From: an uncultured Flavobacterium sp.
GTDB lineage: Bacteria > Bacteroidota > Bacteroidia > Flavobacteriales > Flavobacteriaceae
Assembly: GCF_946481155.1 (NCBI RefSeq)
Contig: NZ_CAMLMK010000081.1
Span: 1 to 12,017, forward strand
Direction of reading: 5' to 3'
Length of the DNA: 12,017 nt
The notes beneath the pieces are model-generated. The model was not told the DNA's origin, did not search any database, and saw only the letters and a list, made by a program, of their open reading frames with translations. Positions 46 through 12,017 of the stretch are shown here, piece after piece. The position numbers and the translations under genes were made by a program. The first letter of the stretch is position 1, and every line of letters begins with the position of its first letter.

Positions 46-907
46 AAACATATAACGCTTTTAAACTCAAATCCATGTTGTAAATGGAATGGGTCAATGC
101 ACCGGATGATACAAAATTCACGCCACATTTGGCATATTCGTGTACGGTTTTTTCGTCAATACCCCCTGAAGATTCGGTAAAGCATTTGTTTCCTATCATC
201 TTCACTGCGGTTCGGGTATCCTCGTAATTAAAATTATCCAGAAGTATTCTGTATACTCCTTCGTTCTTGAGGATTTCTTCCACTTCGCTTAGGGTTCTTG
301 CCTCTACTATTATCTTCAGATCAAGATTGTTTTCTTTTAGGTATAGGTTTGTTTTTTGGATTGCTTTTGAAATTCCGCCTGCGAAATCATTGTGGTTGTC
401 CTTCAGCATAATCATGTCATATAAGCCAAAACGATGGTTCTCGCCACCGGCAATCTTTACGGCCCACTTTTCTAGTGCGCGTATGCCTGGTGTAGTTTTA
501 CGGGTGTCTAATATTTTAGTATTGGTTCCGTCCAGTAAATCTACGAATACCTTTGTTTTGGTAGCTATGGCGCTCATTCGCTGCATGGCATTTAATACCA
601 AACGTTCTGCTTTCAGGATGGATTGCGAGCTGCCTGACACATAGAAAACTATGTCGCCGTATCTTACTGTACTTCCGTCGTGGATAAGCACTTCTACATC
701 CAATAGCGGATCTACATATTCGAATACCATCTTGGCGAATTCAACACCGGCAATGGTGCCTTCATCTTTCACCAGTAGCTTTGCTTTGCCTATTGCGTCT
801 TCGGGAATGCATGCCAATGAGCTGTGGTCCCCTTCTCCGACATCTTCGCGAATGGCATTGGCTATTATTATTTCGAGTTCCTTATGAAACTGTTTATCTG
901 AAATCAT
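44..907 (-). CDS. nadC: Nicotinate-nucleotide pyrophosphorylase (quinolinate phosphoribosyltransferase, decarboxylating)
   Basis: This cytoplasmic enzyme makes nicotinate mononucleotide from quinolinate and PRPP, releasing CO2 and pyrophosphate, in de novo NAD synthesis. The 287-residue length fits the family. The N-terminal half (about 1-115) contains EDVGEGDHSS at 21-30 and the ERLVLNAMQRMSAIAT block at 101-116. The barrel half carries DTRKTTPGIRALEKWAV at 134-150, GGENHRFGLYD at 154-164, MLKDNH at 167-172, EARTLSE at 202-208, LLDNF at 222-226 and ESSGGI at 245-250; these hold the Arg, Lys, His, Glu and Asp residues that bind quinolinate and the phosphoribosyl group in known NadC structures. 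It stands alone, divergent from the serine hydrolase at 1289; no nadA or nadB is present here. The stop abuts the heptamer repeat. Confidence 0.97.
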   Translation of the reverse strand: MISDKQFHKELEIIIANAIREDVGEGDHSSLACIPEDAIGKAKLLVKDEGTIAGVEFAKMVFEYVDPLLDVEVLIHDGSTVRYGDIVFYVSGSSQSILKAERLVLNAMQRMSAIATKTKVFVDLLDGTNTKILDTRKTTPGIRALEKWAVKIAGGENHRFGLYDMIMLKDNHNDFAGGISKAIQKTNLYLKENNLDLKIIVEARTLSEVEEILKNEGVYRILLDNFNYEDTRTAVKMIGNKCFTESSGGIDEKTVHEYAKCGVNFVSSGALTHSIYNMDLSLKALYV

Positions 908-1288
908 AATCGTACAATTTATAGGCTAAAATAAGACATATTTTGGAATCGTAGGCAATTGTTAAAATGTTTTAGCCATCTTTTTAAACACGTTGTGCTC
1001 CTATTGATTTGGTATTGCTCTTATACTGCACTTTGATTGCACTTAAGGAAACTAATACATTCCACCAGGACTCTATTGCGCAAGGGTTGGCATGACCATG
1101 GAGTAAGCACGGCTTTGATACGGCTTTAGGATATTCTATAAGATAATTAAGATATTTATTACAATTTTCATTATGTTTGTAACTGAATTATAAGTCGTTG
1201 CGAAAATCAGTTGGCTCAAAGCGATCGGAAACACAGCAGGATTTAATTCGGCAAGTAAAATCATTATCAATCAAAAAAATCAAAAAGA
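908..1288. other. Intergenic region between divergent nadC and serine hydrolase
   Basis: This 381-bp stretch holds no convincing ORF. It must contain the nadC promoter (minus strand), for which I see no clean match to TAnnTTTG, and the plus-strand promoter element at 1172-1179. A short direct repeat ACGGCTTT occurs at 1109-1116 and 1120-1127. I see no RNA gene or riboswitch-like structure. Confidence 0.6.
1172..1179 (+). promoter_or_regulatory. Bacteroidota -7 promoter element (TATGTTTG)
   Basis: TATGTTTG matches the Bacteroidota sigma-factor -7 consensus TAnnTTTG and lies about 110 bp before the serine hydrolase start. The surrounding ATTATGTTTGTA is identical to the element before the recombinase at 6523, which supports it as a genuine promoter of this genome. 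A clear -33 TTG is not visible at the usual distance. Confidence 0.6.
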
Positions 1289-2494
1289 ATGAAATCAGTA
1301 CTCATCACACTGTTTTCTTTGGCTCTTTCCGTGTACTCTCAAAACGCGACGGGCCAAAGTACACAAAGTTCGCTTGACAATCCTGCAAGTTCGCTTGACG
1401 CTGTCATTGAACAAAAAATGAATGAATCCGGAATTGTTGGTATTGGCGCGGCAATTATTGTTGACAATGAAGTTGTCTGGACCAAAGGGTATGGCTATGC
1501 CGACAAAGACAACAAAATTCCGTTTACTCCAACTACCATTATGAATGTTGGCTCCATCAGCAAGACTTTTACCGGTGTAGCTTTGATGCGTGCCATTGAG
1601 CAGAAGAAACTTTCGCTTGACGAAGACATAAACAAGTACCTGCCATTTAAAGTGGTCAATCCTTATTTTCCGAATGAAAAGATTACCTTAAGGCATTTGG
1701 CTACCCATACTTCGGGAATTACCGACCGTGCGCCAATTTACGACAGTGCGTATCATTATGGCGGTGATCCGATCGAAACCCTGGAAGCCTTTTTGAAGAA
1801 CTATTTTATTCCCGGTAGTACATCCTATGCCAAGGAAAATTTCCTGAATTACAAACCGGGAAGTTACCGGGAATACTCGAACATTGCTGCGGCACTAGCG
1901 GGTTATATTGTTGAATTGCGCACTGATGAGAAATTAAATCTGTACAGTAAAAAGCATATTTTCAAACCGCTGAAGATGGATGACACAGGCTGGTTTCTTT
2001 CGGAAATTAATTTAAAAAACCACTCCAAGCTTTACGATAAGCAAACCGATGTTCTTAAGCCTGTTGCGTTATACAGCTTGGCTACTTATCCGGACGGTGG
2101 CGTTCGTACTTCGGTTACCGATTTATCGAAGTTCTTTATTAGCTTGCTAAATGAAGGCAGCTATAAAGGTACGAGAATCTTAAAAAAGGAGTCGGTTGCA
2201 GAAATGTTGAAGTTTCAGTTTCCGGACACTTTCAGACCAGAAAACGTGCAGCCGGAAAAATTAAATTCCGGGATCTTTTGGGCTACCAAACAAGGCGCTA
2301 CTCAAATTGGCCATAGTGGAAGCGACCCGGGTGTAAAAGCGGAAATGCTTTCTAATCTTTCGAAGGATGTCGCTGTTGTTTTAATTTCGAACACTACGCT
2401 TACCACTGAAAACATGCTTAAGTACTACTTCGGTATTTATGATGCACTTCGGCAGTATGGAGCACAATTGAAGGAAGCTTCCACCACAAAATAA
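1289..2494 (+). CDS. Secreted serine hydrolase, beta-lactamase class C / DD-peptidase fold
   Basis: A serine hydrolase of the beta-lactamase-related family (class C beta-lactamase, D-alanyl-D-alanine carboxypeptidase, esterase). The N-terminus (MKSVLITLFSLALSVYSQ) is a signal peptide, so it acts in the periplasm or at the surface. The three active-site motifs are present in order: SxxK as SISK at 89-92 (nucleophile S89, K92), YxN as YSN at 196-198, and HSG at 342-344 in the place of the KTG box. Length 401 suits the family. HxG instead of KTG is common in family members that are esterases or peptidases rather than true beta-lactamases, so antibiotic resistance should not be assumed and the substrate is unknown. 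It is followed after 83 bp by a second member of the fold, suggesting an old duplication or a pair with related substrates. Confidence 0.9.
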   Translation: MKSVLITLFSLALSVYSQNATGQSTQSSLDNPASSLDAVIEQKMNESGIVGIGAAIIVDNEVVWTKGYGYADKDNKIPFTPTTIMNVGSISKTFTGVALMRAIEQKKLSLDEDINKYLPFKVVNPYFPNEKITLRHLATHTSGITDRAPIYDSAYHYGGDPIETLEAFLKNYFIPGSTSYAKENFLNYKPGSYREYSNIAAALAGYIVELRTDEKLNLYSKKHIFKPLKMDDTGWFLSEINLKNHSKLYDKQTDVLKPVALYSLATYPDGGVRTSVTDLSKFFISLLNEGSYKGTRILKKESVAEMLKFQFPDTFRPENVQPEKLNSGIFWATKQGATQIGHSGSDPGVKAEMLSNLSKDVAVVLISNTTLTTENMLKYYFGIYDALRQYGAQLKEASTTK

Positions 2495-2524
2495 CGAGTG
2501 ATTTTACAAAGAATGACTTTTCGG

Positions 2525-2542
2525 TTTCGATAGCTATCGGAA
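2525..2542. repeat. Short perfect palindrome between the two serine hydrolase genes
   Basis: CGATAGCTATCG at 2528-2539 is a perfect 12-bp palindrome, extendable by TTT on the left pairing with GAA on the right (one G-T pair). It has no T-run on either side, so it is a poor intrinsic terminator. It may be a dispersed palindromic repeat or a processing hairpin; the sequence alone cannot tell. Confidence 0.55.
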
Positions 2543-2607
2543 CAAAACCTTGTATTTAAATAAGCTAATAAGAAGCTATGAATAAACATATTAAACACAA
2601 ATTTCAC

Positions 2608-3702
2608 ATGAAAAAATATATAAGACAAAACTTTTTGCTGCTACTGCTTTTTATCACTATTGGCAGTCCGGCGCAACTGCTTTCAGCACAAAACCTTGAA
2701 ACTAAAATAGACAGTGTGCTACTCACTGTGTTTAAAGATAATAAAGGGCCTGGCGGCGTATTTTTAGTAGCGCAAAAAGGAAAACCCATTTACCAAAAAG
2801 CATTCGGCAAAGCCAATGTACTACAGGATATTGATTTAACTCCGAAAAGCGTTTTTCAATTGGGGTCGATTACCAAGCAATTTACTACCGTTGCCATATT
2901 AATGCTGGAGGAACAGGGAAAGCTAAATGTGAACAATCCGGTTTCGAAATACATTCCTGACTATCCTTCAGGGGATAAGATTACTTTGCATCATTTGCTG
3001 ACACATACGTCGGGCATTAAAGATTTTACTAAAATGAAAGCCTTAAAGGATATTGCCCAAAAGGATTTATCCCCCAAAGAAATGGTAGATTTCTTTAAAA
3101 ATGAGACTGTAGATTTTGCTCCGGGCGAAAAGTTTGAGTATAGCAATTCCGGATATATCGTTTTGGGTTATATCATAGAATTGGTTTCCGGAACAACGTA
3201 TGAAAACTACATCAATACACATATTTTTAAAAAATTGAAAATGAACAATTCCCGTTACGCCAATGATGATGCCGATATTGCTAACAGAGCGTATGGCTAT
3301 CATAAGAAGGAAAACGATTATGTAGATAAAAGGAAGATCAGTTTCAACATTCCTTTTTCCTCAGGCGCATTGATGTCGACCGCAGATGATATGCTGAAAT
3401 GGCAAAATGCTTTAAACCGGAATTTATTACTTAAATCCAATACCATGAAAAAAGCCTACACAAAATACACTCTAAACAATGGAGAGGCATTTACGTATGG
3501 CTATGGGTGGCACCTTAAGGAAATTGACGCAGTCGCGGTAAGAGAGCATGGCGGAAGTATATTCGGGTTTAAAACTATGGGTGTTTATGTTCCGGAAATA
3601 GATGTTTATGTTATTGGATTCAGCAATTGCGACTGTAATTCGCCAACGCAGGCAGCGAGGGATATTGCCGCGATGACTATCAAAGAATTGAAAAAGCAAT
3701 AG
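2608..3702 (+). CDS. Secreted serine hydrolase, beta-lactamase/penicillin-binding-protein fold
   Basis: A second beta-lactamase-related serine hydrolase. The open frame begins at 2578, but the ATG at 2608 is preferred because it puts a classic signal peptide (MKKYIRQNFLLLLLFITIGS, then cleavage near SAQ) at the very N-terminus. Counting from 2578, the motifs are SITK at 97-100 (S97, K100), YSN at 188-190 and HGG at 324-326. The segment LTHTSGIKDF at 141-150 is the usual conserved block between the first two motifs. It shares motif layout with the upstream hydrolase but is clearly diverged in sequence, so it is a paralogue rather than a recent copy. It may share a transcript with the upstream gene and ends at the terminator at 3722. 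The substrate is unknown; peptide or ester cleavage in the cell envelope is the safe inference. Confidence 0.9.
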   Translation: MKKYIRQNFLLLLLFITIGSPAQLLSAQNLETKIDSVLLTVFKDNKGPGGVFLVAQKGKPIYQKAFGKANVLQDIDLTPKSVFQLGSITKQFTTVAILMLEEQGKLNVNNPVSKYIPDYPSGDKITLHHLLTHTSGIKDFTKMKALKDIAQKDLSPKEMVDFFKNETVDFAPGEKFEYSNSGYIVLGYIIELVSGTTYENYINTHIFKKLKMNNSRYANDDADIANRAYGYHKKENDYVDKRKISFNIPFSSGALMSTADDMLKWQNALNRNLLLKSNTMKKAYTKYTLNNGEAFTYGYGWHLKEIDAVAVREHGGSIFGFKTMGVYVPEIDVYVIGFSNCDCNSPTQAARDIAAMTIKELKKQ

Positions 3703-3721
3703 ATTCTTATTACATCAAATC

Positions 3722-3755
3722 AAGGGTTTTAAGGAAAAAACTTAAGACCCTTTTT
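3722..3755 (+). terminator. Intrinsic terminator after the serine hydrolase pair
   Basis: AAGGGTTTTAAG (3722-3733) pairs with CTTAAGACCCTT (3741-3752) with a single T-G wobble, around a 7-nt A-rich loop, and is followed by more T residues. It lies 19 bp after the stop codon. The complementary strand also offers a T-run from the A-rich flank, but no gene on that strand needs it. The T-tract merges with the promoter element of the next gene. Confidence 0.8.
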
Positions 3756-3756
3756 G

Positions 3757-3764
3757 TATATTTG
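3757..3764 (+). promoter_or_regulatory. Bacteroidota -7 promoter element (TATATTTG)
   Basis: TATATTTG matches TAnnTTTG and sits 23 bp before the TPR gene start, directly behind the terminator, which is where a new transcription unit should begin. The 15-mer TTTTTGTATATTTGG at 3751-3765 recurs exactly in the central loop of the fifth cassette recombination site at 11903-11917. Confidence 0.65.
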
Positions 3765-3787
3765 GGAGATATACAATGAAGTAAAAC

Positions 3788-4600
3788 ATGGGAAACATTA
3801 GGACTATTCTTTTCACTGCATTGCTGACAACGCTTCCCTACTCCACCGCCAGTGCCCAGGATGCGGAAGCCTTCCTGAAAACGGCTGAGGAATTTAAAAG
3901 CAAATCGGTTCCCGACAGTGCGCTGGTATATTATGAAAAGGCAGCCGCAGTCTTCCACAAAAACGGCAATACCGAAAAAACAATAAACGCCTACAATAAT
4001 ATAGGAACCATTTTAAACCGTCTTGACAAATATGACAAGGCAAAGTTTTACTTAGAAAAAGCGCTGGCCGAAGGACGTTCGGTAAATGACACCAGCAGCT
4101 TAGCAATCGCTACAGCCTACATTACATTAGGTGTTACTTATGGTGCTGAAAATAAGTTTGATGAATCTTTACTTTACCACAACAAAGCACTTTCCATCCG
4201 GCTTTCAAAATTGGGCGAAAACAGTGCTGACGTTGCTACCAGCTATGGGAATATCGGTAACGTTTATTTTCGCAAAAAAGAATACGAGCCAGCTATTGAA
4301 GCCCATCTGAAAGCAAAAGAGATCAGGGAGAAACTATTCGGCACAAAAAGCAATGAAGTTGTTCAGACCTATACCAATTTAGGAAATGCTTATAAAGAGC
4401 AAAAACATTATACAGAAGCATTGCGCTATTATGAAAAAGCCTTGAACAACAAAATAGAACAGTTGGGACAAGAACATAAAGATTTGGTTAAATATTTCAA
4501 GAATGTAAGCGAAGTTTATCAGGTAATGGGTAATGTTCCGAAGTACGAAGAATACCGAATGAAAGGCGAAGTACTTGAAAAAAGCAATAAAAACAGATAA
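3788..4600 (+). CDS. Secreted tetratricopeptide-repeat protein
   Basis: A 270-residue protein with a signal peptide (MGNIRTILFTALLTTLPYST, cleavage near ASAQ) and then almost nothing but TPR helices. Repeats can be placed at about 25-58, 65-98, 108-141, 150-183, 192-225 and 234-265, each with the small-residue/aromatic pattern of TPRs (for example AYNNIGTILNRLDKYDKAKF and SYGNIGNVYFRKKEYEPAIE). The longer 42-residue spacing of the middle repeats (with LG.NS.DVA.SY) is the kinesin-light-chain-like TPR type. TPRs bind other proteins; there is no catalytic or HTH domain and no C-terminal membrane segment. The DUF4153 membrane protein begins 39 bp downstream in the same direction and is probably in the same operon, so the two could cooperate, but this is inference from spacing only. 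Confidence 0.85.
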   Translation: MGNIRTILFTALLTTLPYSTASAQDAEAFLKTAEEFKSKSVPDSALVYYEKAAAVFHKNGNTEKTINAYNNIGTILNRLDKYDKAKFYLEKALAEGRSVNDTSSLAIATAYITLGVTYGAENKFDESLLYHNKALSIRLSKLGENSADVATSYGNIGNVYFRKKEYEPAIEAHLKAKEIREKLFGTKSNEVVQTYTNLGNAYKEQKHYTEALRYYEKALNNKIEQLGQEHKDLVKYFKNVSEVYQVMGNVPKYEEYRMKGEVLEKSNKNR

Positions 4601-4639
4601 AAAACCATCTTAAACAGGCAACAACTTATAAGAAAACTT

Positions 4640-6400
4640 ATGGAAAAAATTCGTGCCCTTTCGGAAAAAGTCAAAAACGTTCTTCTACGCTATCCCATGG
4701 TTTTGGCAATGGCGGTTCTTATGGCCGGAACCATCATTTATATGATTGAAAATGATTGGCGGCCGGAAAAAGATTTCCTTCCGATGCGAATCATTCTAAC
4801 TGCTGCACTGGGTATTTCACTGATGTTTGCCATAAAAATGCTGTCTCAGCGTGTGGGAAAAGAGTTATTGTGGCATGGTATAGGCATTATTTTACTGGTA
4901 GCCTACTTCCTGATTCTGCCGGAAACGGAAAAAGATTTTACAGATGTATATGCCTTTGTCATTTTTCCTGTAATGATCATCTCCCATTTGCTGGTTTCCT
5001 GCATTGCGTTTCTAAGAAGCGAGCCGGAAGTCAAATTCTGGGAATTCAATAAAAACCTTTTTATCAATTTCGTATTGACTGCAATATTTACCGGTGTGCT
5101 GACCGGTGGTGTTATGCTTGCGATTGTTGCGGTTCAGGAGCTTTTCAACATTGATTTTAAACCTGAAACTTATGGAGAAACCTTTGCCTTCTTCTCTATT
5201 ATCGGCAGTGTGTTTATTTTTCTGCTTTTTAATGAAAAAGGACTGGAATATCTGGAAAAAGAAGGAAGTTATCCCGTTGTTTTGAAGTTCTTTACCCAAT
5301 TTATCCTCATCCCGCTGCTGTTAATCTACGTTGTAATCCTCTATTTTTATTCTTTTAAAATATTGTTTCAATGGGAACTGCCGCAGGGATGGGTTTCCTA
5401 TTTAATTTTGGCTTATTCCATATTGGGAATATTGGCCTTACTTTTAGTCCATCCCCTGAAAGAAGATTCTGCAAAATCGTGGGTAAGGATTTTCAGCAGG
5501 CTGTTTTATATTACCCTGGCTCCTCTGATCGCATTACTGTTTACCGCAATTTTCACAAGGTTATTAGAGTATGGTTTTACGGAACCACGCTATTATGTAC
5601 TTTTATTAGCGGTTTGGTTATTGAGTGTAGTCCTATATTTTATTGCGGGCAAAAGACCGACGATTAAATTCATCCCCATCTCACTTATTATCATAGGCTT
5701 ATTTGCTTTGTTATTCCCTTATGTGAATGCATTCTCGGTAGCGAAACGAAGCCAGAAAACAGAATTGGAAAATCTACTAAAAGAACACCACTTGGTTGCC
5801 AACGGTAAAATTGACTTCAGCAAAAAGATTACAGCTGATGTGACAGATAATATCTCGGATAAGTTTGAATTTTTAAGTGAGCGACGTGAATATGACTATT
5901 TGAGTACTTTCCTTCCGGATACGGCTCGTACTAAATTGGAAGGACAGCAAGTATGGCATATAAAAGGCATATTCAGTAATGTTGCCGAGGGTTCTGCAAA
6001 GGATAAATCCAATTATTTGGACCTAACCAGTAAAAACGGATTTGCTGAAGTTCAGGATTACCATTACATCATCAGAGAACAGGATTTAATTGGGAAAGGC
6101 GTAACCATTGGTCAGAGTCATTTTACCCTGGAAAGCAGAACCTATTTTGCTAACCCAGAGTACATGCTGAGACTAAATTCAGAAGAACAGTTGGACTTAA
6201 TGCCAAAAATTAAAAAACTGATTGACAGGCATAAAGAACTTGAAGGCATTGTGGAAGTCGATAATCTGTTTGTGGAAGGTGAGATTGGCCAATTTCATGT
6301 AAAAGTCATTTTCAACACCCTTGGACGATCTACCCATGGAGCCGATACACGCTACGATTTTTCGAATGCTTTATTTCTACTAAAAGACAAGTCTAAATAG
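4640..6400 (+). CDS. DUF4153-type multi-pass membrane protein
   Basis: A 586-residue inner-membrane protein. About 11 hydrophobic segments can be placed near residues 20-36, 48-66, 78-93, 104-123, 140-165, 180-197, 217-240, 250-270, 287-307, 317-335 and 344-362. A soluble C-terminal part of about 220 residues follows, starting near 370 (LENLLKEHHLVANGKIDF). The arrangement and this C-terminal start are as I recall them for the Bacteroidota DUF4153 family, whose function is not established. There are no recognisable transporter, kinase or protease motifs. It follows the TPR gene closely and has no promoter of its own that I can see. Family assignment is from memory of the pattern and is moderately sure; the membrane topology is well supported. 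Confidence 0.75.
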   Translation: MEKIRALSEKVKNVLLRYPMVLAMAVLMAGTIIYMIENDWRPEKDFLPMRIILTAALGISLMFAIKMLSQRVGKELLWHGIGIILLVAYFLILPETEKDFTDVYAFVIFPVMIISHLLVSCIAFLRSEPEVKFWEFNKNLFINFVLTAIFTGVLTGGVMLAIVAVQELFNIDFKPETYGETFAFFSIIGSVFIFLLFNEKGLEYLEKEGSYPVVLKFFTQFILIPLLLIYVVILYFYSFKILFQWELPQGWVSYLILAYSILGILALLLVHPLKEDSAKSWVRIFSRLFYITLAPLIALLFTAIFTRLLEYGFTEPRYYVLLLAVWLLSVVLYFIAGKRPTIKFIPISLIIIGLFALLFPYVNAFSVAKRSQKTELENLLKEHHLVANGKIDFSKKITADVTDNISDKFEFLSERREYDYLSTFLPDTARTKLEGQQVWHIKGIFSNVAEGSAKDKSNYLDLTSKNGFAEVQDYHYIIREQDLIGKGVTIGQSHFTLESRTYFANPEYMLRLNSEEQLDLMPKIKKLIDRHKELEGIVEVDNLFVEGEIGQFHVKVIFNTLGRSTHGADTRYDFSNALFLLKDKSK

Positions 6401-6522
6401 ATATTGATTATGGGCAATAAACTATTTCTTCTGTGTAGCAGTGGTTTTAAGTAAGTGGTTCTAAATGAATTCACAGCCCAATTTTCGTAATTATGAATTT
6501 AGGATAATTACTACAAATTTAT

Positions 6523-6530
6523 TATGTTTG
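6523..6530 (+). promoter_or_regulatory. -7 promoter element (TATGTTTG) overlapping the first ATG of the recombinase frame
   Basis: TATGTTTG matches TAnnTTTG and sits in ATTATGTTTGTA, the same 12-mer found before the gene at 1289. The first ATG of the recombinase frame (6524-6526) lies inside this element, so if the promoter is real transcription starts near 6536 and that ATG cannot be used. Translation would then begin at 6548 or 6551. Confidence 0.55.
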
Positions 6531-6547
6531 TATATAAACTATACGCC

Positions 6548-7621
6548 ATGATGAATGATTTTACGCCTTACACTTTTACTTTCGGAAGCCATTTTAATCA
6601 GCGGGTCATTTATATTTCCTTTGAGAATAAAGCCGAATTGATTGCGCCGATACGCCAGTTACGGGGTGCCAGATGGAACCCTACCCTGAAATCCTGGCAT
6701 GTTCCCGACAATAAACATTACCGTGATTTATTTGGATTGACGAATGAGTTTAGTGTAGGGAAAACTGTGCTGTCCCGCATTGTTCCTGTAAACCAAAATG
6801 AATTGCAGCGGATGGTTGAGCAGCTCAAGCTAAAAGGTTACAGCAATAATACGCTTCGGTGTTATGCCAATGAATTTGCCCAATACCTTTACTTTATAAA
6901 AGACAAGCCGGCGCGATACTGCGATGGGAATGTTGTCCGTGATTATCTGCTTCACTGCATTGAAGAGTTGCGTTTGACTGAGAGTACGCTTCACAGCAGG
7001 ATAAGTGGCATTAAGTTTTATTATGAGCAGGTTTTGTTTCAGGAAAAGATCTTTGTTGAAATTCCGCGGCCTAAAAAGCAAAGTAAGCTCCCGAAGGCAC
7101 TGAATGTTTATGAAGTGAAGCGTATTCTGGATGCGGCTGAAAATTTAAAGCACAACACCATGCTGAAATTATGTTATGGGATGGGTTTGCGACTTAGTGA
7201 GATCATTAATCTGAAAATCGCACATATCGACAGTAAAACCATGCAGGTGTTGATTGAGCGTGGTAAGGGAAAGAAAGATCGTTATGTGAATCTGCCGGCT
7301 AGTATTCTGGAGCAACTTCGCTCCTACTATCTGCAATACAAGCCTAAAGAATATTTATTTGAAGGGCAGCATGGCGGGCCGTATAGTGCGAGGAGCATAC
7401 AGGAGGTCTTTAAGAAATCGTTGACCAAGGCACGTATTACAAAAAAAGTTGGCATTCATAGTTTGCGGCACAGTTACGCAACCCATTTGCTGGAGAGCGG
7501 TACGGACATCCGGTTCATACAGGAATTGCTGGGTCACAATGATATAAAGACCACTTTGGTGTACACTCATGTTTCTGACAATTCGATCCGAAAAATTGTT
7601 AGTCCGCTCGACAATCTATGA
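6548..7621 (+). CDS. Tyrosine recombinase, putative integrase of the cassette array (integron-like)
   Basis: The frame is open from an ATG at 6524 (365 residues); 6548 is chosen because a promoter element covers the first ATG. Numbering from 6524: an extra N-terminal domain at about 17-75 (IRQLRGARWNPTLKSWHVP at 43-61), a SAM-like core-binding domain at about 89-180, and the catalytic domain from about 190. Catalytic residues are R223 (GMGLRLSEI), a lysine in GKGKKDR (247-253), H312 and R315 (HSLRHS), H338 (LLGH) and Y347 (YTH). The C-terminus is SPLDNL, like the SPLDxL end of IntI. The roughly 30-residue IntI-specific insert before the HxLRH box is absent, so by domain layout it is closer to XerC/XerD. 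It lies immediately upstream of the cassettes, in the same direction, which supports a role in their excision and integration at G^TT. That role is inferred from position. A housekeeping XerC/D is less likely given the extra domain and the neighbourhood. Confidence 0.88.
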   Translation: MMNDFTPYTFTFGSHFNQRVIYISFENKAELIAPIRQLRGARWNPTLKSWHVPDNKHYRDLFGLTNEFSVGKTVLSRIVPVNQNELQRMVEQLKLKGYSNNTLRCYANEFAQYLYFIKDKPARYCDGNVVRDYLLHCIEELRLTESTLHSRISGIKFYYEQVLFQEKIFVEIPRPKKQSKLPKALNVYEVKRILDAAENLKHNTMLKLCYGMGLRLSEIINLKIAHIDSKTMQVLIERGKGKKDRYVNLPASILEQLRSYYLQYKPKEYLFEGQHGGPYSARSIQEVFKKSLTKARITKKVGIHSLRHSYATHLLESGTDIRFIQELLGHNDIKTTLVYTHVSDNSIRKIVSPLDNL

Positions 7622-7631
7622 TTAAATTACT

Positions 7632-7639
7632 TACATTTG
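7632..7639 (+). promoter_or_regulatory. Candidate -7 element (TACATTTG) after the recombinase, facing the array
   Basis: TACATTTG matches TAnnTTTG eleven bases after the recombinase stop codon and points toward the first cassette. It could be the equivalent of the integron cassette promoter Pc. No -33 element is visible, and two hairpins (7674 and 7805) lie between it and the first cassette gene, so its use is uncertain. Confidence 0.3.
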
Positions 7640-7673
7640 GCTGTTGAAAGGCGGAAAAAATATATTTATATCT

Positions 7674-7690
7674 ATTGCGCAAACCGCAAT
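7674..7690 (+). terminator. Possible terminator after the recombinase gene
   Basis: ATTGCG (7674-7679) pairs perfectly with CGCAAT (7685-7690) around a 5-nt loop, followed by a T-rich stretch that includes eight T in a row from about 7706. The stem is short and the first downstream bases (GCATTATTTT) are not a clean T-run, so it is a weak candidate. Confidence 0.35.
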
Positions 7691-7738
7691 GCATTATTTT
7701 ATATATTTTTTTTAAAAACCCTTTATTTATCAACATTT

Positions 7739-7788
7739 TAACAGGCTCTGTTTATTTCGTGTAGTGCGTATAAATAAGAGTTAGTGGC
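7739..7788 (+). other. Candidate attI-like insertion site before cassette 1
   Basis: The first cassette boundary is G^TTAGTGGC at 7780. Upstream, TAACAG at 7739-7744 repeats the left edge of the attC sites (TAACAG), and TTATTT (7752-7757) is complementary to AAATAA (7772-7777), just inside the boundary. This makes a short site of about 45 bp, much smaller than the attC sites and without their GCGG arm or GGGAC spacer. It fits the position of a primary attI site between integrase and first cassette; that role is inference. Confidence 0.5.
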
Positions 7789-7804
7789 AAGGCTATGACG
7801 ACAC

Positions 7805-7832
7805 AACCCGACAGACAAATCGGGTTCTTTTT
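7805..7832 (+). terminator. Intrinsic terminator at the head of cassette 1
   Basis: AACCCGA (7805-7811) pairs with TCGGGTT (7820-7826) around an 8-nt loop and is followed by CTTTTT. It lies inside cassette 1, 24 bp from its start and before its promoter. It would stop transcripts entering from the recombinase side and insulate the cassette operon. Confidence 0.75.
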
Positions 7833-7852
7833 GATATTTTGTATTTTAGTAA

Positions 7853-7882
7853 TTGCTTAAATAAACAAATTAACTATCTTTG
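7853..7882 (+). promoter_or_regulatory. Bacteroidota -33/-7 promoter of the metal-resistance operon
   Basis: TTG at 7853-7855, a 19-nt spacer and TATCTTTG at 7875-7882 form the best -33/-7 promoter in the window. ATTGC (7852-7856) and GCAAT (7882-7886) are an inverted repeat bracketing the promoter, a possible operator for the ArsR-type regulator encoded just downstream. The expected transcription start is near 7887, at or next to the ATG, so the mRNA may be nearly leaderless. Confidence 0.7.
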
Positions 7883-7886
7883 CAAT

Positions 7887-8261
7887 ATGGACAACAATTC
7901 TTGCATACGACAACAAGCGGACATTAAACAAATAAATCGCTGTAAAAACCGAGTTTCAGAACTCAACGGCTCGTTTGACTATTTATCGAACGGACTTGAA
8001 TTAGCGGGAAACAACGTAAGACTGAAAATTCTCTTTCTATTATATGAAGAAAAACGACTCTGTGTTTGTGATATGAGCGACATTCTTGGTATGACAATTT
8101 CGGCAATTTCACAACACTTGCGAAAACTCAAAGACCGAAAACTAATTGAAACCGAACGAGAAGCACAAACCATTTTTTACTCATTGACAAAAGAGTATGA
8201 AAAAATGCTGAAACCGTTTTTTAAAATACTTGACGAAAACAAAATTTTAGAAACATTATGA
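7887..8261 (+). CDS. ArsR/SmtB-family metal-responsive repressor
   Basis: The frame is open from 7839, but the upstream ATG lies before the promoter, so the ATG at 7887 (MDNNSCIRQQ) is chosen, giving 124 residues. It is a winged-helix ArsR/SmtB repressor. The metal-binding motif LCVCD (C59, C61) opens the recognition helix region, followed by the HTH MSDILGMTISAISQHLRKLK at about 63-82 and the wing ETEREAQTIFYSL at 88-100. Extra cysteines at 6 and 19 could complete a thiol site, as in arsenic, cadmium or mercury sensors of this family. Its TGA overlaps the ATG of the next gene (ATGA), so it is translationally coupled to the MerTP gene and very likely represses its own operon until metal arrives. 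Mercury is the likeliest inducer by context; arsenic or cadmium is possible. Confidence 0.88.
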   Translation: MDNNSCIRQQADIKQINRCKNRVSELNGSFDYLSNGLELAGNNVRLKILFLLYEEKRLCVCDMSDILGMTISAISQHLRKLKDRKLIETEREAQTIFYSLTKEYEKMLKPFFKILDENKILETL

Positions 8262-8857
8262 AAACAGACAAAAAACTAATCGGAGCAGGACTTTTAACAG
8301 CAATTGCAGCTTCATTGTGTTGTATTACTCCAGTCTTGGCTTTAGTAGCAGGAACAAGCGGACTTGCTTCTACTTTTTCTTGGCTCGAACCTTTCAGACC
8401 GTATTTTATCGGTTTGACAATTTTGGTTCTTGGTTTTGCTTGGTATCAAAAGTTGAAACCTAAAAAGCAAATTGACTGCAACTGTGAGACAGAAGAAAAA
8501 CCAAAATTCATTCAGTCAAAAATGTTTTTAGGAATTGTAACAGCATTTGCAATCGTTATGCTTGCCTTTCCATACTATTCAAGCATTTTCTACCCAAAGA
8601 AAGAAAAGCAAATCAAAGTAGTGGACAAATCCAATATTCAAAAAGTAAAATTTACGATTAGCGGAATGACTTGTGCGAGTTGCGAAGAACACGTAAATCA
8701 CGAAGTAAATAAATTGACAGGAATAATAAGTTCAAACGCTTCATATGAAAATGGAAATGCAATCATAGAATTTGACAACTCAAAAACAAATATTTCTGAA
8801 ATCGAAAAAGCAATAAACTCAACAGGATATTCTGTAACCGACAAAAAAGAAAATTAA
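8258..8857 (+). CDS. merTP: MerT-MerP fusion mercuric ion transport protein
   Basis: A 199-residue fusion of a MerT-like membrane transporter and a MerP-like heavy-metal-associated (HMA) domain. Membrane segments lie at about 7-33, 48-63 and 88-110. The Cys pair in the first segment (C21-C22, SLCCITPV) and the pair in the loop (C74 and C76, DCNCE) correspond to the Hg(II) relay cysteines of MerT. The HMA domain spans about 128-196 with GMTCASC (C139, C142). In the classic pathway MerP hands Hg(II) to MerT, which passes it inward to mercuric reductase. No merA or merB is seen in this window, so the cassette alone could take up metal but not detoxify it; a partner elsewhere is needed or the real substrate or direction differs. 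It overlaps the regulator by 4 bp and is separated from the next gene by one base. Confidence 0.85.
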   Translation: MKTDKKLIGAGLLTAIAASLCCITPVLALVAGTSGLASTFSWLEPFRPYFIGLTILVLGFAWYQKLKPKKQIDCNCETEEKPKFIQSKMFLGIVTAFAIVMLAFPYYSSIFYPKKEKQIKVVDKSNIQKVKFTISGMTCASCEEHVNHEVNKLTGIISSNASYENGNAIIEFDNSKTNISEIEKAINSTGYSVTDKKEN

Positions 8858-8858
8858 A

Positions 8859-9065
8859 ATGGAAATCAAATTACAATCAACAATAACTTGCCCCAACTGC
8901 GGACATAAGAAAGAAGAAACAATGCCGACAGACGCTTGCCAATATTTTTACGAATGTGAAAAATGCAAACAAGTTCTAAAACCAAAACAAGGCGACTGCT
9001 GTGTTTATTGTAGCTACGGAAGTGTTGCTTGTCCACCAATTCAGCAGGACAAAAAATGTTGCTGA
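8859..9065 (+). CDS. Small GDCCVxC-motif cysteine-rich protein
   Basis: A 68-residue cytoplasmic protein of the GDCCVxC family found next to mer genes. The signature GDCCVYC lies at 45-51, followed by SYGSVACPP at 52-60. CPNC at 11-14 and CEKC at 33-36 look like a zinc-ribbon-type metal site, and the protein ends in CC, giving at least ten cysteines in 68 residues. It starts one base after the MerTP stop and is the last gene of the cassette 1 operon. It probably binds or shuttles the imported metal; the exact role in this family is not established to my knowledge. Some relatives replace a cysteine with selenocysteine; here the motif positions are ordinary TGT/TGC codons. Confidence 0.85.
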   Translation: MEIKLQSTITCPNCGHKKEETMPTDACQYFYECEKCKQVLKPKQGDCCVYCSYGSVACPPIQQDKKCC

Positions 9066-9088
9066 CAGACGGAAAACAAAGAAGCCCA

Positions 9089-9224
9089 GCCACTAACAGC
9101 GGTTTGGCAAAAGTGGCGGTTCAGTGCTTCGTATGACAGTTTTTCGTAAATTTGAAGTGTGTGCTTCGTATGAACATTTGTGGTTAAATCGCCACCTTCG
9201 CCAAGCCGCAAACCGTTAGCAAAC
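9089..9224 (+). repeat. attC-like recombination site of cassette 1 (attC-1)
   Basis: The outer boxes are GCCACTAAC (9089-9097) and CCGTTAGC with the crossover at G9215^TT. Inside, GCGGTTTGGC (9099-9108) pairs with GCCAAGCCGC (9200-9209), and GTGGCG (9113-9118) with CGCCAC (9190-9195). The spacer before GTT is AAACC, different from the GGGAC of the other four sites. The loop contains a 13-bp direct repeat GTGCTTCGTATGA (9124-9136 and 9161-9173). Confidence 0.8.
9147..9154 (+). promoter_or_regulatory. -7-like element TAAATTTG in the loop of attC-1
   Basis: An exact TAnnTTTG match on the cassette-sense strand, 159 bp before the cassette 2 gene start. It belongs to a pattern repeated in all five sites. 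No -33 box is apparent. Confidence 0.4.
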
Positions 9225-9265
9225 ATTTTGGAAAAACGGCACTCTTTAGAAAACTTAATGTCACC

Positions 9266-9294
9266 AATTTTAGTTAGATTATTTAAAATCTAAC
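9266..9294 (+). repeat. Hairpin and flanking direct repeat in cassette 2
   Basis: GTTAGATT (9273-9280) pairs with AATCTAAC (9287-9294) around ATTTAA. The 15-mer AATTTTAGTTAGATT at 9266-9280 recurs exactly at 9744-9758, so the gene is bracketed by a direct repeat. GTTAGAT and ATCTAAC fit the integron core boxes GTTRRRY and RYYYAAC, which could be a scar of an older cassette boundary or chance. Confidence 0.55.
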
Positions 9295-9313
9295 GTGAAT
9301 TACAAAAAAAATT

Positions 9314-9736
9314 ATGAAAATATACAATTATTTATTATTCAGACTATATACTACGTTATCTAAAAACAAACAGTATTCTGAAGGAGTAATTGATTATTTA
9401 GCAACAATTATTTCAACATTATATATTTACATTTTGTTTTATACTTTTTGGGCAATTGTAAATTTTTATTTCCTACCATCTATTGATGAAAGAAACTTCA
9501 ATAAGGCTATTATAGCTATATCCATTCTATTAATAACATATCTGAATTATTACTTTTTCATAAAAGAAAAGAAATTTTTAAATCAAAATTTTAAGGAAGA
9601 CAAAACTGGCGGATACTCAATTTTGGGACTCTTAATTTTTTCTTTTATAATTTTTATTATTGTAGCAAATAAAAATCGTGAAAGAATAACAAATCAAAAC
9701 AAGAATTTAAGTATTGAAAAACAAAATGACAATTAA
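9314..9736 (+). CDS. Small three-span membrane protein, unknown function
   Basis: I do not recognise this 140-residue protein. It has three strongly hydrophobic stretches at about 29-52, 65-83 and 102-118, a charged lysine-rich loop between the second and third (KEKKFLNQNFKEDK at 84-97), and a polar, Asn/Lys-rich tail. There is no signal peptide, lipobox or enzymatic motif. Base composition is markedly more AT-rich than the chromosomal genes to the left, consistent with recent acquisition. It is the only gene of cassette 2, with a leader of about 98 bp. Small membrane proteins are frequent in integron cassettes, including defence and immunity genes, but nothing here points to a specific job. 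Confidence 0.7.
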   Translation: MKIYNYLLFRLYTTLSKNKQYSEGVIDYLATIISTLYIYILFYTFWAIVNFYFLPSIDERNFNKAIIAISILLITYLNYYFFIKEKKFLNQNFKEDKTGGYSILGLLIFSFIIFIIVANKNRERITNQNKNLSIEKQNDN

Positions 9737-9775
9737 TAGTCATAATTTTAGTTAGATTTAGTTATTAATTAAAAC

Positions 9776-9914
9776 GTTTGCTAACAGGGGTTTCATGAAA
9801 TTGGGGCTTTAAGGCTAAATTTAAAGGTTATTTCATATATTTGGCTTCCGTGGTTATGGAATGGTTTGGTAATATATAAACCCCAACTTCATGAAGCCCC
9901 GGGACGTTAACGGC
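9776..9914 (+). repeat. attC-like recombination site of cassette 2 (attC-2)
   Basis: Outer boxes GTTTGCTAAC (9776-9785) and GTTAACGGC (crossover at G9906^TT). The left arm GGGGTTTCATGAAATTGGGG (9787-9806) is nearly complementary to the right arm CCCCAACTTCATGAAGCCCC (9881-9900), followed by the spacer GGGAC (9901-9905). Arms differ in sequence from the other sites but keep the same geometry, which argues for selection on fold rather than sequence. Confidence 0.85.
9836..9843 (+). promoter_or_regulatory. -7-like element TATATTTG in the loop of attC-2
   Basis: An exact TAnnTTTG match on the cassette-sense strand, 79 bp before the cassette 3 start codon. Same octamer as the chromosomal promoter element at 3757. 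Confidence 0.45.
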
Positions 9915-9922
9915 AATACTAC

Positions 9923-10543
9923 ATGACGAAACGCTTAAGTAAAATATCTATTATTCTCATTCTATTAATTACAAGTTGTAATAACTTAAGTAAAAAGGAT
10001 AGTGTCGAAAAGATTGATAATAAGTTTACTCAAAAAAAATATCAAGAAATTATTCCAAATAAAATAGTTTATGAGTTCATCAATAATGTTCTCTTGAAAG
10101 AAAACAAAATATATCAGTTTTGCGGAAATCTGTTGGACAGAAATTCTTTTATAGATATTAAAGGAGATTCTATCTTAATTTCCAAAATCGACACTTTATC
10201 TATATTTTCAAAAGAAGACAAAGCTTTTATCAAGGCTCAATACTTGAATGGTAATAATTTTGTTTTAAATCAAAAACTAATCAAAGAAAGACAACTTATT
10301 AAACTTGATACTACAATTAACTCTAAAGAAGATTATCACAAGTTTTGGGAAAAGGTAGATAAAGAATATGATTGCGTCGGTTTTGTCAGTGTTCCTATAT
10401 TTAATAAAAAGAAAGACATAGTTATAGTTGAAATAAGTTATAATTGCGGTGCCTTTTGTGCTGAAGGAGGAACTTTTATATACAAACTAAATGAAAATAA
10501 TCGTTGGGAATTGCTACTTACTTTGGATAAATGGATCAGCTAA
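9923..10543 (+). CDS. Putative lipoprotein, unknown function
   Basis: A 206-residue protein with a lipoprotein signal: a basic start (MTKRLSK), a hydrophobic core and a lipobox ITSC, with C19 as the likely lipidated residue. Mature protein is therefore anchored in the envelope. The C-terminal part has a compact pattern, VEISYNCGAFCAEGGTFIYK at 169-188 with C175 and C179, then RWELL at 194-198; this resembles a short beta-sheet module (hydrophobic strand, CG-x-C/G loop, strand, W) that I recall from hypothetical proteins of Bacteroidota, but I cannot name it. Further cysteines at 67 and 151 could form disulfides. The leader before the start is only 16 bp inside the cassette, so transcription must begin upstream, in attC-2 or further back. 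AT-rich like the other cassette genes. Confidence 0.75.
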   Translation: MTKRLSKISIILILLITSCNNLSKKDSVEKIDNKFTQKKYQEIIPNKIVYEFINNVLLKENKIYQFCGNLLDRNSFIDIKGDSILISKIDTLSIFSKEDKAFIKAQYLNGNNFVLNQKLIKERQLIKLDTTINSKEDYHKFWEKVDKEYDCVGFVSVPIFNKKKDIVIVEISYNCGAFCAEGGTFIYKLNENNRWELLLTLDKWIS

Positions 10544-10551
10544 TAAGTACA

Positions 10552-10691
10552 GCCGTTAACAGCGGTTTGGCGCAATTGCTGGTTAAATTTTGTATTTGCA
10601 AGCTCCAGGAAAAAACCAACCTTCTCTCCTACTTGGAAACTTTTTGCTAAATTAGCCGCAACTGACGCCAAGCCGCGGGACGTTAGCTGTA
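10552..10691 (+). repeat. attC-like recombination site of cassette 3 (attC-3)
   Basis: Outer boxes GCCGTTAAC (10552-10560) and GTTAGCTGTA (crossover at G10682^TT). Left arm GCGGTTTGGCG (10562-10572) pairs with right arm CGCCAAGCCGC (10666-10676) with one T-G pair, and the stem continues as CAATTGCTGG/CCGCAACTG. Spacer is GGGAC (10677-10681) against a single A on the left side. Confidence 0.85.
10591..10598 (+). promoter_or_regulatory. Degenerate -7-like element TGTATTTG in the loop of attC-3
   Basis: One mismatch to TAnnTTTG, at the equivalent loop position to the elements in the other four sites. On its own this would not be called; it is listed because of the shared pattern. Confidence 0.25.
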
Positions 10692-10710
10692 ACCTTAAAT
10701 CAACGAACCG

Positions 10711-11163
10711 ATGAAAAACATCTTGCTTCTAGGATTAATTTTGTTCTCAAGTCTATCTTTTGCTTGTAGTTGTATTAATGCTAATCGAGAGAACTCCGTA
10801 ATACATACTGAGGTTATAATTAGTGGAAAGATATTATCACAAGAAAACATATTAGTAAAGAGTAAAAGAAACCACGACTTTCAAGCTATAGCTAAAAAAT
10901 ACACTGTTCTTGTAACTGAAAAACTCAAAGGAAAATTAAAAAAAGAGATCATAACTATTTATGGTGATCCTAGTAATTGCGCATATAATTTTCAAGTTGG
11001 AGAAAGCTATATCATATTTGCTATTTATAGAAATAGACATATGGATGATAGTAAGAAGGTAAAGAAATTTTTATTTACAAATAAATGTACTAGAACTGCC
11101 AAACTTGATGACCAAGAAGTAGAGAAAATAAAAGCGTTGTGCAAAGACAAAGGCTACAGCTAA
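10711..11163 (+). CDS. Secreted TIMP/NTR-like (netrin-fold) protein
   Basis: A 150-residue protein with a signal peptide (MKNILLLGLILFSSLSFA) whose mature form would begin with CSC, the Cys-x-Cys start typical of tissue-inhibitor-of-metalloproteinase (TIMP)/NTR OB-fold domains. Downstream features fit that fold: VIISGKILS at 35-43, YTVLVTEKLKG at 64-74, ITIYGDPSNCAYNFQVGESY at 81-100 and NKCTRTAKL at 124-132. Cysteines at 19, 21, 90, 126 and 144 could give the disulfides of the fold. In animals the free N-terminal Cys of TIMPs chelates the metalloprotease zinc; whether this bacterial protein inhibits a protease is inference. A lipoprotein reading is weaker because the residue three before the Cys is Ser. 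The stop TAA is part of the attC outer box (TACAGCTAAC), so the last residues YS are encoded by recombination-site sequence. Confidence 0.75.
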   Translation: MKNILLLGLILFSSLSFACSCINANRENSVIHTEVIISGKILSQENILVKSKRNHDFQAIAKKYTVLVTEKLKGKLKKEIITIYGDPSNCAYNFQVGESYIIFAIYRNRHMDDSKKVKKFLFTNKCTRTAKLDDQEVEKIKALCKDKGYS

Positions 11164-11326
11164 CAGCGGGTTTCTGCAATGGCGGGTTTAGGGATTTATT
11201 TGGGATGGTTAGTGTTTGCATTTCTTCTTTAAACAGAAGTTTTTTCTTTACTACTTTTCGGTATTTTTGTAAACGTCAGTAATAAAAAACCGCCACTGAC
11301 AGAAAGCCGGCGGGACGTTATACCAC
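11155..11326 (+). repeat. attC-like recombination site of cassette 4 (attC-4)
   Basis: Outer boxes TACAGCTAAC (11155-11164) and GTTATACCAC (crossover at G11317^TT). Left arm GCGGGTTTCTG-CAATGGCGG (from 11166) is complementary to right arm CCGCCACTGACAGAAAGCCG (11290-11309), then C and the GGGAC spacer before GTT. At about 166 bp between outer boxes it is the longest of the five. Confidence 0.85.
11262..11269 (+). promoter_or_regulatory. -7-like element TATTTTTG in the loop of attC-4
   Basis: An exact TAnnTTTG match on the cassette-sense strand, 76 bp before the cassette 5 start codon. No clear -33 box. Confidence 0.4.
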
Positions 11327-11345
11327 ATTTTAAAAAAACGAAATC

Positions 11346-11858
11346 GTGAAATTAGAAGAGACAATAAAAAAGAGACAAATAATTGATATTGACACTGCTC
11401 CTAACACAGACAATGTGTATACTGGAATGTGTTTAATTGCGAACTCAGAAATCGTTATGCTTCTTAATTTTGATGAAGAAAACGGCGAATTTGACGGATT
11501 TACAATAGTTAAAAATAAAGACGTTGAGAATTTTAGAATCTGGGAAGAAGATGAATATTCAGAATTAAAAAATGACAATTCAGAAAGTTTAATAGCCAAT
11601 ATTGATCTAAACAATTTTAAAGATTTAGAAAGCTCACTCCAGAGTTTATCTTCTGAATTAGTTGCGATATTTACTTATGATGATGAAGATGATTTTTTTG
11701 TTGGAAAAATATTATCGGTGAAAAAAGAATCTGTAGAATTACATTTAGTGGACGAAGACGCTAAATGGAATGAAATAGAAATAGTTAAACTTAATGACAT
11801 AAGTTATCTAGGGTTTGATACTTCATACGAAAGGGAAATAAAGAAAAACGTGGTATAA
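11346..11858 (+). CDS. Acidic protein with two similar halves, unknown function
   Basis: A 170-residue cytoplasmic protein with a GTG start at 11346; the next in-frame ATG is more than 80 bp in and would cut into the first repeat. I do not recognise the family. It is rich in Asp and Glu. Two segments look alike: YTGMCLIANSEIVMLLNFDE (26-45) with GFTIVKNKDVENFRI after it, and FVGKILSVKKESVELHLVDE (117-136) with IEIVKLNDISYLGF after it. Both read as short beta-strand, turn, strand, acidic loop, then IVKxxDI/V and a final strand, which suggests a duplicated small beta-barrel (SH3/Sm-like) module. No signal peptide, membrane span or catalytic motif. Its stop TAA is part of the attC outer box GTGGTATAAC, so VV at the end comes from recombination-site sequence. 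Confidence 0.75.
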   Translation: MKLEETIKKRQIIDIDTAPNTDNVYTGMCLIANSEIVMLLNFDEENGEFDGFTIVKNKDVENFRIWEEDEYSELKNDNSESLIANIDLNNFKDLESSLQSLSSELVAIFTYDDEDDFFVGKILSVKKESVELHLVDEDAKWNEIEIVKLNDISYLGFDTSYEREIKKNVV

Positions 11859-11985
11859 CAGCGGTTTGCAGCAAGTGGGGTTTTAGGGAAAACTCCAACT
11901 TCTTTTTGTATATTTGGCTTGGTGATAAACCAAACTAAAGGAACAAAATCCCCACCTGCAGCAAGCCGGCGGGACGTTATACCAC
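11850..11985 (+). repeat. attC-like recombination site of cassette 5 (attC-5)
   Basis: Outer boxes GTGGTATAAC (11850-11859) and GTTATACCAC (crossover at G11976^TT); here both outer boxes are complementary because the next cassette has the same start. Left arm GCGGTTTGCAGCAAGTGGGG (11861-11880) is complementary to right arm CCCCACCTGCAGCAAGCCGG (11950-11969) apart from small bulges, then C and the GGGAC spacer before GTT. Confidence 0.87.
11909..11916 (+). promoter_or_regulatory. -7-like element TATATTTG in the loop of attC-5
   Basis: An exact TAnnTTTG match on the cassette-sense strand. The surrounding TTTTTGTATATTTGG (11903-11917) is identical to the promoter region of the TPR gene at 3751-3765. 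Confidence 0.45.
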
Positions 11986-12017
11986 ATTTTAAAAAAACGA
12001 AATCGTGAAATTAGAAG
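11977..12017 (+). mobile_element. Start of gene cassette 6, identical to the start of cassette 5 (cut by window edge)
   Basis: The 42 bases from G11976 to the end match the 42 bases from G11317 exactly, including the leader and the GTG start codon (12005) with its first four codons. This is either a second copy of cassette 5 or a paralogous cassette with an identical head. Confidence 0.7.
12005..12017 (+). CDS. Partial second copy of the acidic two-repeat protein gene
   Basis: GTGAAATTAGAAG repeats the first bases of the gene at 11346 exactly, with the same 28-bp leader from the cassette boundary. Only four codons are inside the window, so identity of the rest is inferred. Confidence 0.5.

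Follow-up and report, generated by a model that had tools for sequence, protein, structure and literature searches.

In this study, we analyzed a 12,017-bp stretch of DNA from an uncultured Flavobacterium sp. (contig NZ_CAMLMK010000081.1, positions 1 to 12,017), which is referred to here as the window. The 3' part of the window contains a gene for a 365-amino-acid tyrosine recombinase (positions 6524 to 7621) and a row of units in a single orientation, which starts 159 bp behind this gene. Our results indicated that the row contains five complete cassettes, which are very probably inserted and excised at G^TT by the neighboring recombinase, a XerA-like protein outside the IntI clade, via a site that is folded as a bottom-strand hairpin. 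Based on the sequences, we read the row and the recombinase as an integron-like system that has a recombinase branch and a site architecture of its own. In many Bacteroidota, rows of exchangeable-looking units are found beside a non-classic recombinase that probably shuffles them.

The original prediction, which was made from the letters of the window, described an integron-like gene-cassette array that follows the logic of circular cassettes. Both of these parts held up, but the array is not a typical integron, as the recombinase is without the IntI-specific insertion and the sites are built differently. Integrons are regarded as a single family, with IntI as the defining feature. In this case, another recombinase branch appears to operate the same kind of platform for gene capture, with other recognition marks, and to do so in a phylum in which, according to passages of PMC9024848, few complete integrons have been reported. 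In searches of an open-access library (preprints excluded), no listed title or abstract start described such a system, and a description elsewhere is possible.

Self-complementary cassette ends and folded sites

As had been claimed for the window, five consecutive units each close in the exact reverse complement of their own start. The units are located at positions 7780 to 9097 (GTTAGTGGC), 9215 to 9785 (GTTAGCAAAC), 9906 to 10560 (GTTAACGGC), 10682 to 11164 (GTTAGCTGTA), and 11317 to 11859 (GTTATACCAC), and they are separated by palindromic gaps of 117, 120, 121, and 152 bp. The number of 9-bp end pairs (five) exceeded the numbers in 300 shuffles of the 4.4 kb (mean of 0.5, maximum of 3). 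A single 9-bp pair is unremarkable, and the chain of units is the improbable part: chains of at least two units joined by a palindromic gap were found in none of 101 shuffled sequences (one shuffle each). The features of the row are as follows.

6524 to 7621, plus strand: tyrosine recombinase, 365 amino acids, with an N-terminal domain of its own, a SAM-like domain, and a catalytic domain, without the IntI-specific insertion
7767 to 7780, plus strand: attI-like junction, with CGTATA at 7767 to 7772 and the inferred crossover G at 7780 (from the motif count at first junctions)
7780 to 9214, plus strand: cassette 1, with an ArsR/SmtB regulator, MerTP, a GDCCVxC protein, and a candidate recombination site (from end pairs, family matches, and identity to Flavobacterium enshiense)
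7887 to 8261, plus strand: ArsR/SmtB-family regulator (family match), with the ATG picked by eye within the open reading frame (ORF) at 7839 to 8261
8258 to 8857, plus strand: MerTP mercuric transport fusion protein (NF033556, 316.5 bits versus a cut-off of 180)
8859 to 9065, plus strand: GDCCVxC domain protein (NF041374, 111.2 bits versus a cut-off of 40)
9094 to 9218, plus strand: attC-like site 1 (covariance model, 102.6 bits; fold)
9215 to 9905, plus strand: cassette 2, ORF at 9314 to 9736, membrane-protein-like by eye, no family above cut-off
9782 to 9909, plus strand: attC-like site 2 (covariance model, 80.9 bits)
9906 to 10681, plus strand: cassette 3, ORF at 9923 to 10543, lipoprotein-like by eye, no family
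10557 to 10685, plus strand: attC-like site 3 (covariance model, 57.7 bits)
10682 to 11316, plus strand: cassette 4, ORF at 10711 to 11163, family matches all sub-threshold
11161 to 11320, plus strand: attC-like site 4, of the class with a 152-bp gap (covariance model, 42.8 bits)
11317 to 11975, plus strand: cassette 5, ORF at 11346 to 11858 with a GTG start, no family above cut-off
11856 to 11979, plus strand: attC-like site 5 (covariance model, 58.2 bits)
11976 to 12017, plus strand: beginning of a sixth unit that is truncated at the window edge, with 42 bases identical to the start of cassette 5

Position-wise pairing of the unit ends was determined for 91 units from 25 loci, including the window. 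Pairing was complete at positions 1 to 7 (by selection), remained high at positions 8 (0.98) and 9 (0.96), fell to 0.68 at position 10 and 0.02 at position 11, and recovered at positions 12 to 15 (0.89, 0.93, 0.86, and 0.67). Positions 10 to 15 played no part in the detection of units. At position 11, an A at the start and a C at the end were present in 77 of the 91 units, and this mismatch on the top strand corresponds to a G.T pair on the bottom strand. The five window units followed the same pattern: pairing restarted at positions 12 to 15 past the position-11 mismatch, and 13 or 14 of the 15 positions were paired. The canonical control arrays (28 units from 8 of 20 Bacteroidota loci and 34 units from 9 of 20 Gammaproteobacteria loci) were without the position-11 mark, and their pairing fell off from position 8 onward. 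The original prediction had regarded pairing past 7 bp as a special feature. This idea had to be given up because the canonical controls exceeded 7 bp too, and passages of PMC2727003 give 9 to 11 bp for most canonical cassettes. What sets the window-type units apart is that position 11 is mismatched and that a second block pairs at positions 12 to 15.

The 91-unit set, from which locus L014 was excluded, and the array labels of the loci and the tree also accepted chains with 7-bp ends and a pmin of 16 (3 of 81 shuffled sequences); the canonical pairing profile was made with this setting only. A setting of 6-bp ends and a pmin of 16 gave chains of three or more units in 25 of 81 shuffled sequences and was therefore rejected.

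The folded sites were analyzed in the 118-bp class (n = 20), in which 94.8% of the cells paired, versus 31 to 40% when the partner was slid. In the inner stem, 16 of the 17 pairs showed changes on both sides in some sequence. All 17 pairs were in one register, and hence the consensus has no one-sided extra base; the spacer between the outer and inner stem was one-sided (2 nt versus about 6 nt). According to passages of PMC2727003, the central spacer of canonical attC sites is unpaired and two to three bases are extrahelical, which is not what we found in these 20 sites. Window-type sites differ from integron sites in the outer stem of about 15 bp with its A/C at position 11, in the spacer, and in the inner consensus stem. 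In the proposed mechanism, the G.T pair at position 11 and the one-sided spacer would take the place of the extrahelical bases.

The predicted bottom-strand hairpin was more stable than the top-strand hairpin in 84 of the 91 units, by a mean of 4.05 kcal/mol; the bottom strand was also favored in 20 of 28 Bacteroidota and 28 of 34 Gammaproteobacteria control units. The bias suggests that the substrate of the recombinase may be the single-stranded bottom strand, folded as a hairpin. Strand selection by a recombinase without the IntI-specific domain becomes testable in this system.

Site lengths (69 distinct sites from 25 loci) clustered at 53 to 54, 117 to 119, 150 to 153, and about 173 to 184 bp, with steps of about 32 bp, and the canonical Bacteroidota control sites were mostly 104 to 117 bp long. 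When the sites were examined for internal repeats, a weak signal appeared at a lag of 19. A unit in a Cytophagales metagenome-assembled genome (MAG; L013:16280-17738) had 42-bp perfectly complementary ends and is perhaps a derived or decayed form. TAnnTTTG, which we take to be the Bacteroidota -7 promoter element, occurred in 12 of 57 distinct Bacteroidota sites, versus a mean of 2.9 and a maximum of 8 in shuffled sequences. This count is suggestive only; it raises the possibility that promoters for the downstream cassette are located in the sites.

The recombinase and its linkage to the sites

The catalytic residues R, H, R, H, and Y were kept in all 78 aligned relatives, the window recombinase included. 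The spacing between the KGKKDR and HxLRH motifs was 58 to 62 residues in the same 78 proteins and 58 to 66 in 18 Xer-type controls, versus exactly 100 in 20 of 20 IntI proteins; the window recombinase is without the approximately 42-residue insertion of integron integrases. Passages of PMC9668308 define the integron integrase by an IntI-specific additional domain, and this domain was absent from the window protein. In agreement, the protein scored under the cut-off of the integron-integrase model TIGR02249 (201 versus 265 bits) and did so in two stretches; the TIGR02249 matches listed for array genomes were likewise split, skipping about positions 180 to 240. The score against NF040815 was also under the cut-off (211 versus 220 bits). 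The best NCBIfam and fold matches were XerA.

In a tree of 116 rows made by a quick method, the 20 IntI proteins formed one clade (value of 100), and the window recombinase was located outside this clade, among array-linked relatives. The tree omits L048, L056, and L025 (short proteins) and takes every second canonical locus (20 of 40). Fifteen of the 18 Xer-type controls were separated from a grouping that contained both IntI and the recombinase set, which indicates that IntI and this set are kin. The array-linked rows were not one clade, and many of the rows labeled as having no array came from contigs that end beside the gene. The N-terminal domain spans about residues 12 to 75 (window positions 6524 to 6790) and has two nearly invariant tryptophans; its match to DUF5710 was sub-threshold, and a fold search with the whole model ranked XerA and IntI first. 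Among phages, 16 records were found, with distant integrases, all under 60% identity.

We examined 80 loci from public genomes, which were selected solely on the similarity of the recombinase and were the best 80 of at least 578 confirmed stretches. The gene was adjoined by arrays, the longest with 14 chained units, in Flavobacterium, Ilyomonas, Rufibacter, Draconibacterium, and Pedobacter and, outside the Bacteroidota, an array lay beside the gene in Cohnella lupini. A stricter signature test, which required 15-bp ends with A/C at position 11, found 157 units in 47 of the 80 loci, versus 2 on one strand of equally long shuffled sequence. Fusibacter (three units) and a Fibrobacterota MAG (four units) had signature units outside the phylum. 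The 155 units clear of the gene were mostly located behind it and pointing away (126) or in front of it and pointing away (26), and 3 were behind the gene and pointing towards it. An outward unit was found within 2.5 kb of the gene in 33 of the 44 loci that had at least 2.5 kb behind the gene. In locus L001, a small chain upstream of the gene, with its frames towards the gene, was not counted by the stricter test. A Chryseobacterium plasmid carried three signature units behind a gene for an NF040815-labeled member; some family members already carry an integron-integrase label because NCBI titles NF040815 'site-specific tyrosine recombinase/integron integrase'.

Contigs ended within 700 bp of the gene on its 3' side in 19 of the 80 loci and on its 5' side in 3, as repeats would cause, and hidden arrays may lie beyond these contig ends. 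The contigs that end beside the gene include those of an Undinarchaeota MAG (L053), Paenibacillus (L072), and WOR-3 (L076). The site pattern was also present in twenty stretches of IMG/VR viral contigs (L081 to L100), several of them chained, such as six units in L082.

A covariance model of the sites, R1, was built from 20 of 22 listed 118-bp sites (loci L003, L007, L013, L017 to L020, L034, L040, L048, L051, L062, and L068), with the window outside the training set. The original prediction had proposed a covariance model as a check, and R1 recovered all five window sites at 42.8 to 102.6 bits. Among 27 chosen genomes, R1 matched all 16 Bacteroidota array genomes (1 to 76 sites), of which G001, G003, G006, G012, and G014 were outside the training and the other 11 contributed to it. 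One weak site was found in Marinicella, and 0 of 9 canonical-IntI genomes had a match.

In the subsequent scan of 296 Bacteroidota genomes, the filters were stricter and no more than 11 candidates per genome were scored, so that the counts are lower bounds. R1 matched 142 genomes at E<=1e-6. Sites were present in 80 of the 93 genomes with the recombinase (called at E<=1e-60) versus 62 of the 203 without it (p=7e-20), and in 37 of the 38 genomes with a full-length recombinase among the matches listed. For canonical IntI, the corresponding numbers were 32 of the 84 genomes with it and 110 of the 212 without it (odds ratio of 0.57). The sites track the XerA-like recombinase, not IntI. The belief that typical integrons are rare in Bacteroidota did not fit this sample, in which 84 of 296 genomes had an IntI above the NCBI cut-off; this exceeds the small number that complete genomes had been reported to contain.

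The row might instead be a canonical integron or a CALIN (a cluster of attC sites without an integrase) with its IntI elsewhere, the neighboring recombinase being a bystander. The GTTR/YAAC ends and hairpin sites do resemble attC, R1 faintly recognizes canonical sites, and canonical IntI and R1 sites share the 32 genomes noted above. However, IntI above the cut-off was found in 0 of 20 array genomes; these genomes fit the CALIN definition in being without IntI, yet another recombinase is linked to their arrays. Arrays start about 73 to 260 bp from the recombinase gene, on either side, in 35 cases, and the association of the sites is strong for the XerA-like recombinase, as opposed to the odds ratio for IntI and the absence of R1 sites from the nine chosen canonical-IntI genomes. 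We therefore regard a bystander recombinase as highly unlikely.

The likeness of our proposed recombinase-linked system to an integron (IntI, attI, and attC) consists of G^TT bounds, private complementary ends of the RYYYAAC/GTTRRRY type, a folded site between cassettes, and an array whose start is an attI-like junction next to a tyrosine recombinase that is kin to IntI. Besides the site architecture, it differs in a recombinase that has no insertion of about 42 residues, does not belong to the IntI clade, and carries an N-terminal domain of its own, and in an array that is often on the recombinase's strand. In the same-strand integron of Treponema denticola, the integrase is also read in the direction of the cassettes, but it is a true IntI.

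Probable mobility of cassettes and competing explanations

Cassette 1 of the window was 97% identical to a cassette in F. enshiense DK69, where it is the fifth unit of an eight-unit chain (the sixth unit behind the recombinase by the stricter test). The neighborhood there is different, and the edges of the match are exactly at G^TT: it begins with the G of GTT and stops shortly after the following GTT, and the left flank agrees at 10 of 60 bases. In a third genome (83% identical), the left edge of the match is at the same base in the whole-window comparison, and the match stops with the last gene. Cassette 1 matches were found in 76 of 299 Flavobacteriaceae, and the others among the matches listed were partial and at most 83% identical. 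The circular-cassette logic of the original prediction was thus borne out, with one cassette common to two genomes, both breakpoints at G^TT, and the left one shared by a third genome. Complementary R boxes and a G^TT boundary, by which integrons are recognized, are both present. A nadC stretch (one gene) is likewise found on the upstream side of the F. enshiense recombinase, in keeping with a resident platform whose cassettes change.

The junction between the recombinase gene and the first cassette also has a mark of its own. The motif CG[TC][AG]TA was present at -13 in 15 of 35 first junctions (those within about 73 to 260 bp of the gene, on either side) versus 0 of 111 later junctions. These data are consistent with a mechanism in which the XerA-like recombinase would act on the cassette sites and new cassettes would enter at the attI-like junction. 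The cargo would be whatever was captured; the cassettes of the window carry a mercury operon and functionally uncharacterized genes.

The best HMM (hidden Markov model) and fold match of the recombinase, XerA, would also be in keeping with a double-stranded Xer-type module system, in which the GTT junctions are duplex sites and the hairpin is incidental. The chromosome-dimer resolvases XerC/D act on the duplex dif site, and the window recombinase has a motif spacing similar to that of XerA and XerC/D (58 to 66 residues; PDB 5hxy, 4a8e, and 1a0p), but its gene, unlike theirs, adjoins a cassette array. A duplex site would have no need for private pairing in each unit, a covarying inner stem, or a strand difference in stability, and the sites between units share one orientation. 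The pdif modules of Acinetobacter plasmids (PMC6449649 and PMC7399989) likewise carry accessory genes between Xer-type sites, but they use the host XerC/XerD and dif-like sites rather than long hairpin sites and a linked recombinase. An incidental hairpin is, in our view, a highly improbable account of the row. Static repeats, that is, immobile palindromic terminators or REP-like elements among ordinary genes, would explain hairpins downstream of genes and are hardly credible, because end-to-end complementarity over 0.5 to 1.3 kb serves no terminator role, whole units are shared with G^TT edges, and arrays begin at the recombinase.

Several results weigh against the cassette system that we propose. 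The recombinase is kin to IntI in the tree, and its best solved-structure match by sequence was an integron integrase (2a3v, 129.7 bits), narrowly over the Xer-like 4a8e (127.5 bits); the structure model was of modest quality (pTM of 0.43). No signature unit was found in 33 of the 80 loci, partly because contigs end. R1 found no site in Cohnella, whose sites pass the end-pairing tests alone, and it gave 13 faint matches (maximum of 29 bits) in 40 canonical loci, 9 of them on canonical sites; five units within these loci also satisfied the 15-bp test. The 32 canonical-IntI genomes with R1 sites count on the same side, as do the 62 genomes that hold sites without a recombinase match, which means either that arrays without a recombinase exist or that the threshold misses partners. 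Finally, the compared genomes included no strains of one species, and no recombination event was observed.

tet(X) plasmids and other cargo

We think it probable that a second integron class, with its own recombinase branch and its own single-strand hairpin sites, has such sites in roughly half of the Bacteroidota genomes sampled, extends to other phyla, has been overlooked because tools seek IntI, and packed the last-resort tetracycline-resistance gene tet(X) into a mobile cassette. In this reading, the 'xerD' next to tet(X) would be what remains of the recombinase of this class. In the case of Acinetobacter plasmids, a shorter relative of the recombinase (annotated as 221 amino acids; 50% identical over 62% of the query) precedes tet(X3). 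The ends of the tet(X3) unit match in part (12 of 16), and the site behind tet(X3) was partly matched, with 20.8 bits at the end of the record in the small plasmid and 13.4 bits in the larger plasmid. The Empedobacter falsenii plasmid p1681-tetX has a tet(X) unit with matching ends, the position-11 mark, and a complete 96-bit site; the plasmid record gives tet(X) as a predicted resistance gene but has no coding sequence (CDS) row for it. The same site follows tet(X) in a Proteus plasmid, in which a matching start was not found. These tet(X) plasmid stretches are L233:157-1487, L235:4157-4283, L232:2967-5117, and L248:900-2981. No site was found in a tet(X6) plasmid stretch (L234) or in a second Chryseobacterium plasmid (L230).

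The xerD-tet(X3) arrangement is described in passages of PMC8635130, and PMC7473080, in the passages concerned, reports xerD beside tet(X) variants and poses a mobilizing role as a question to test. The array system offers an answer to that question.

A distant DNA search of plasmids gave 12 records, with merTP-region genes and site-only matches. About window positions 9076 to 9221, that is, site 1 alone, was resembled on Empedobacter, Riemerella, and Adhaeribacter plasmids at 72 to 79% identity.

In the window itself, units 2 to 5 have one open frame each, and none of these matched a family above its cut-off; Rfam gave no match up to E=1. The sixth unit is likely a tandem copy of cassette 5, judging from its 42 bases. 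From left to right, the remainder of the window contains nadC (quinolinate phosphoribosyltransferase, minus strand), genes for two PF00144 beta-lactamase-family proteins, a TPR protein gene, and a gene for a DUF4153 protein.

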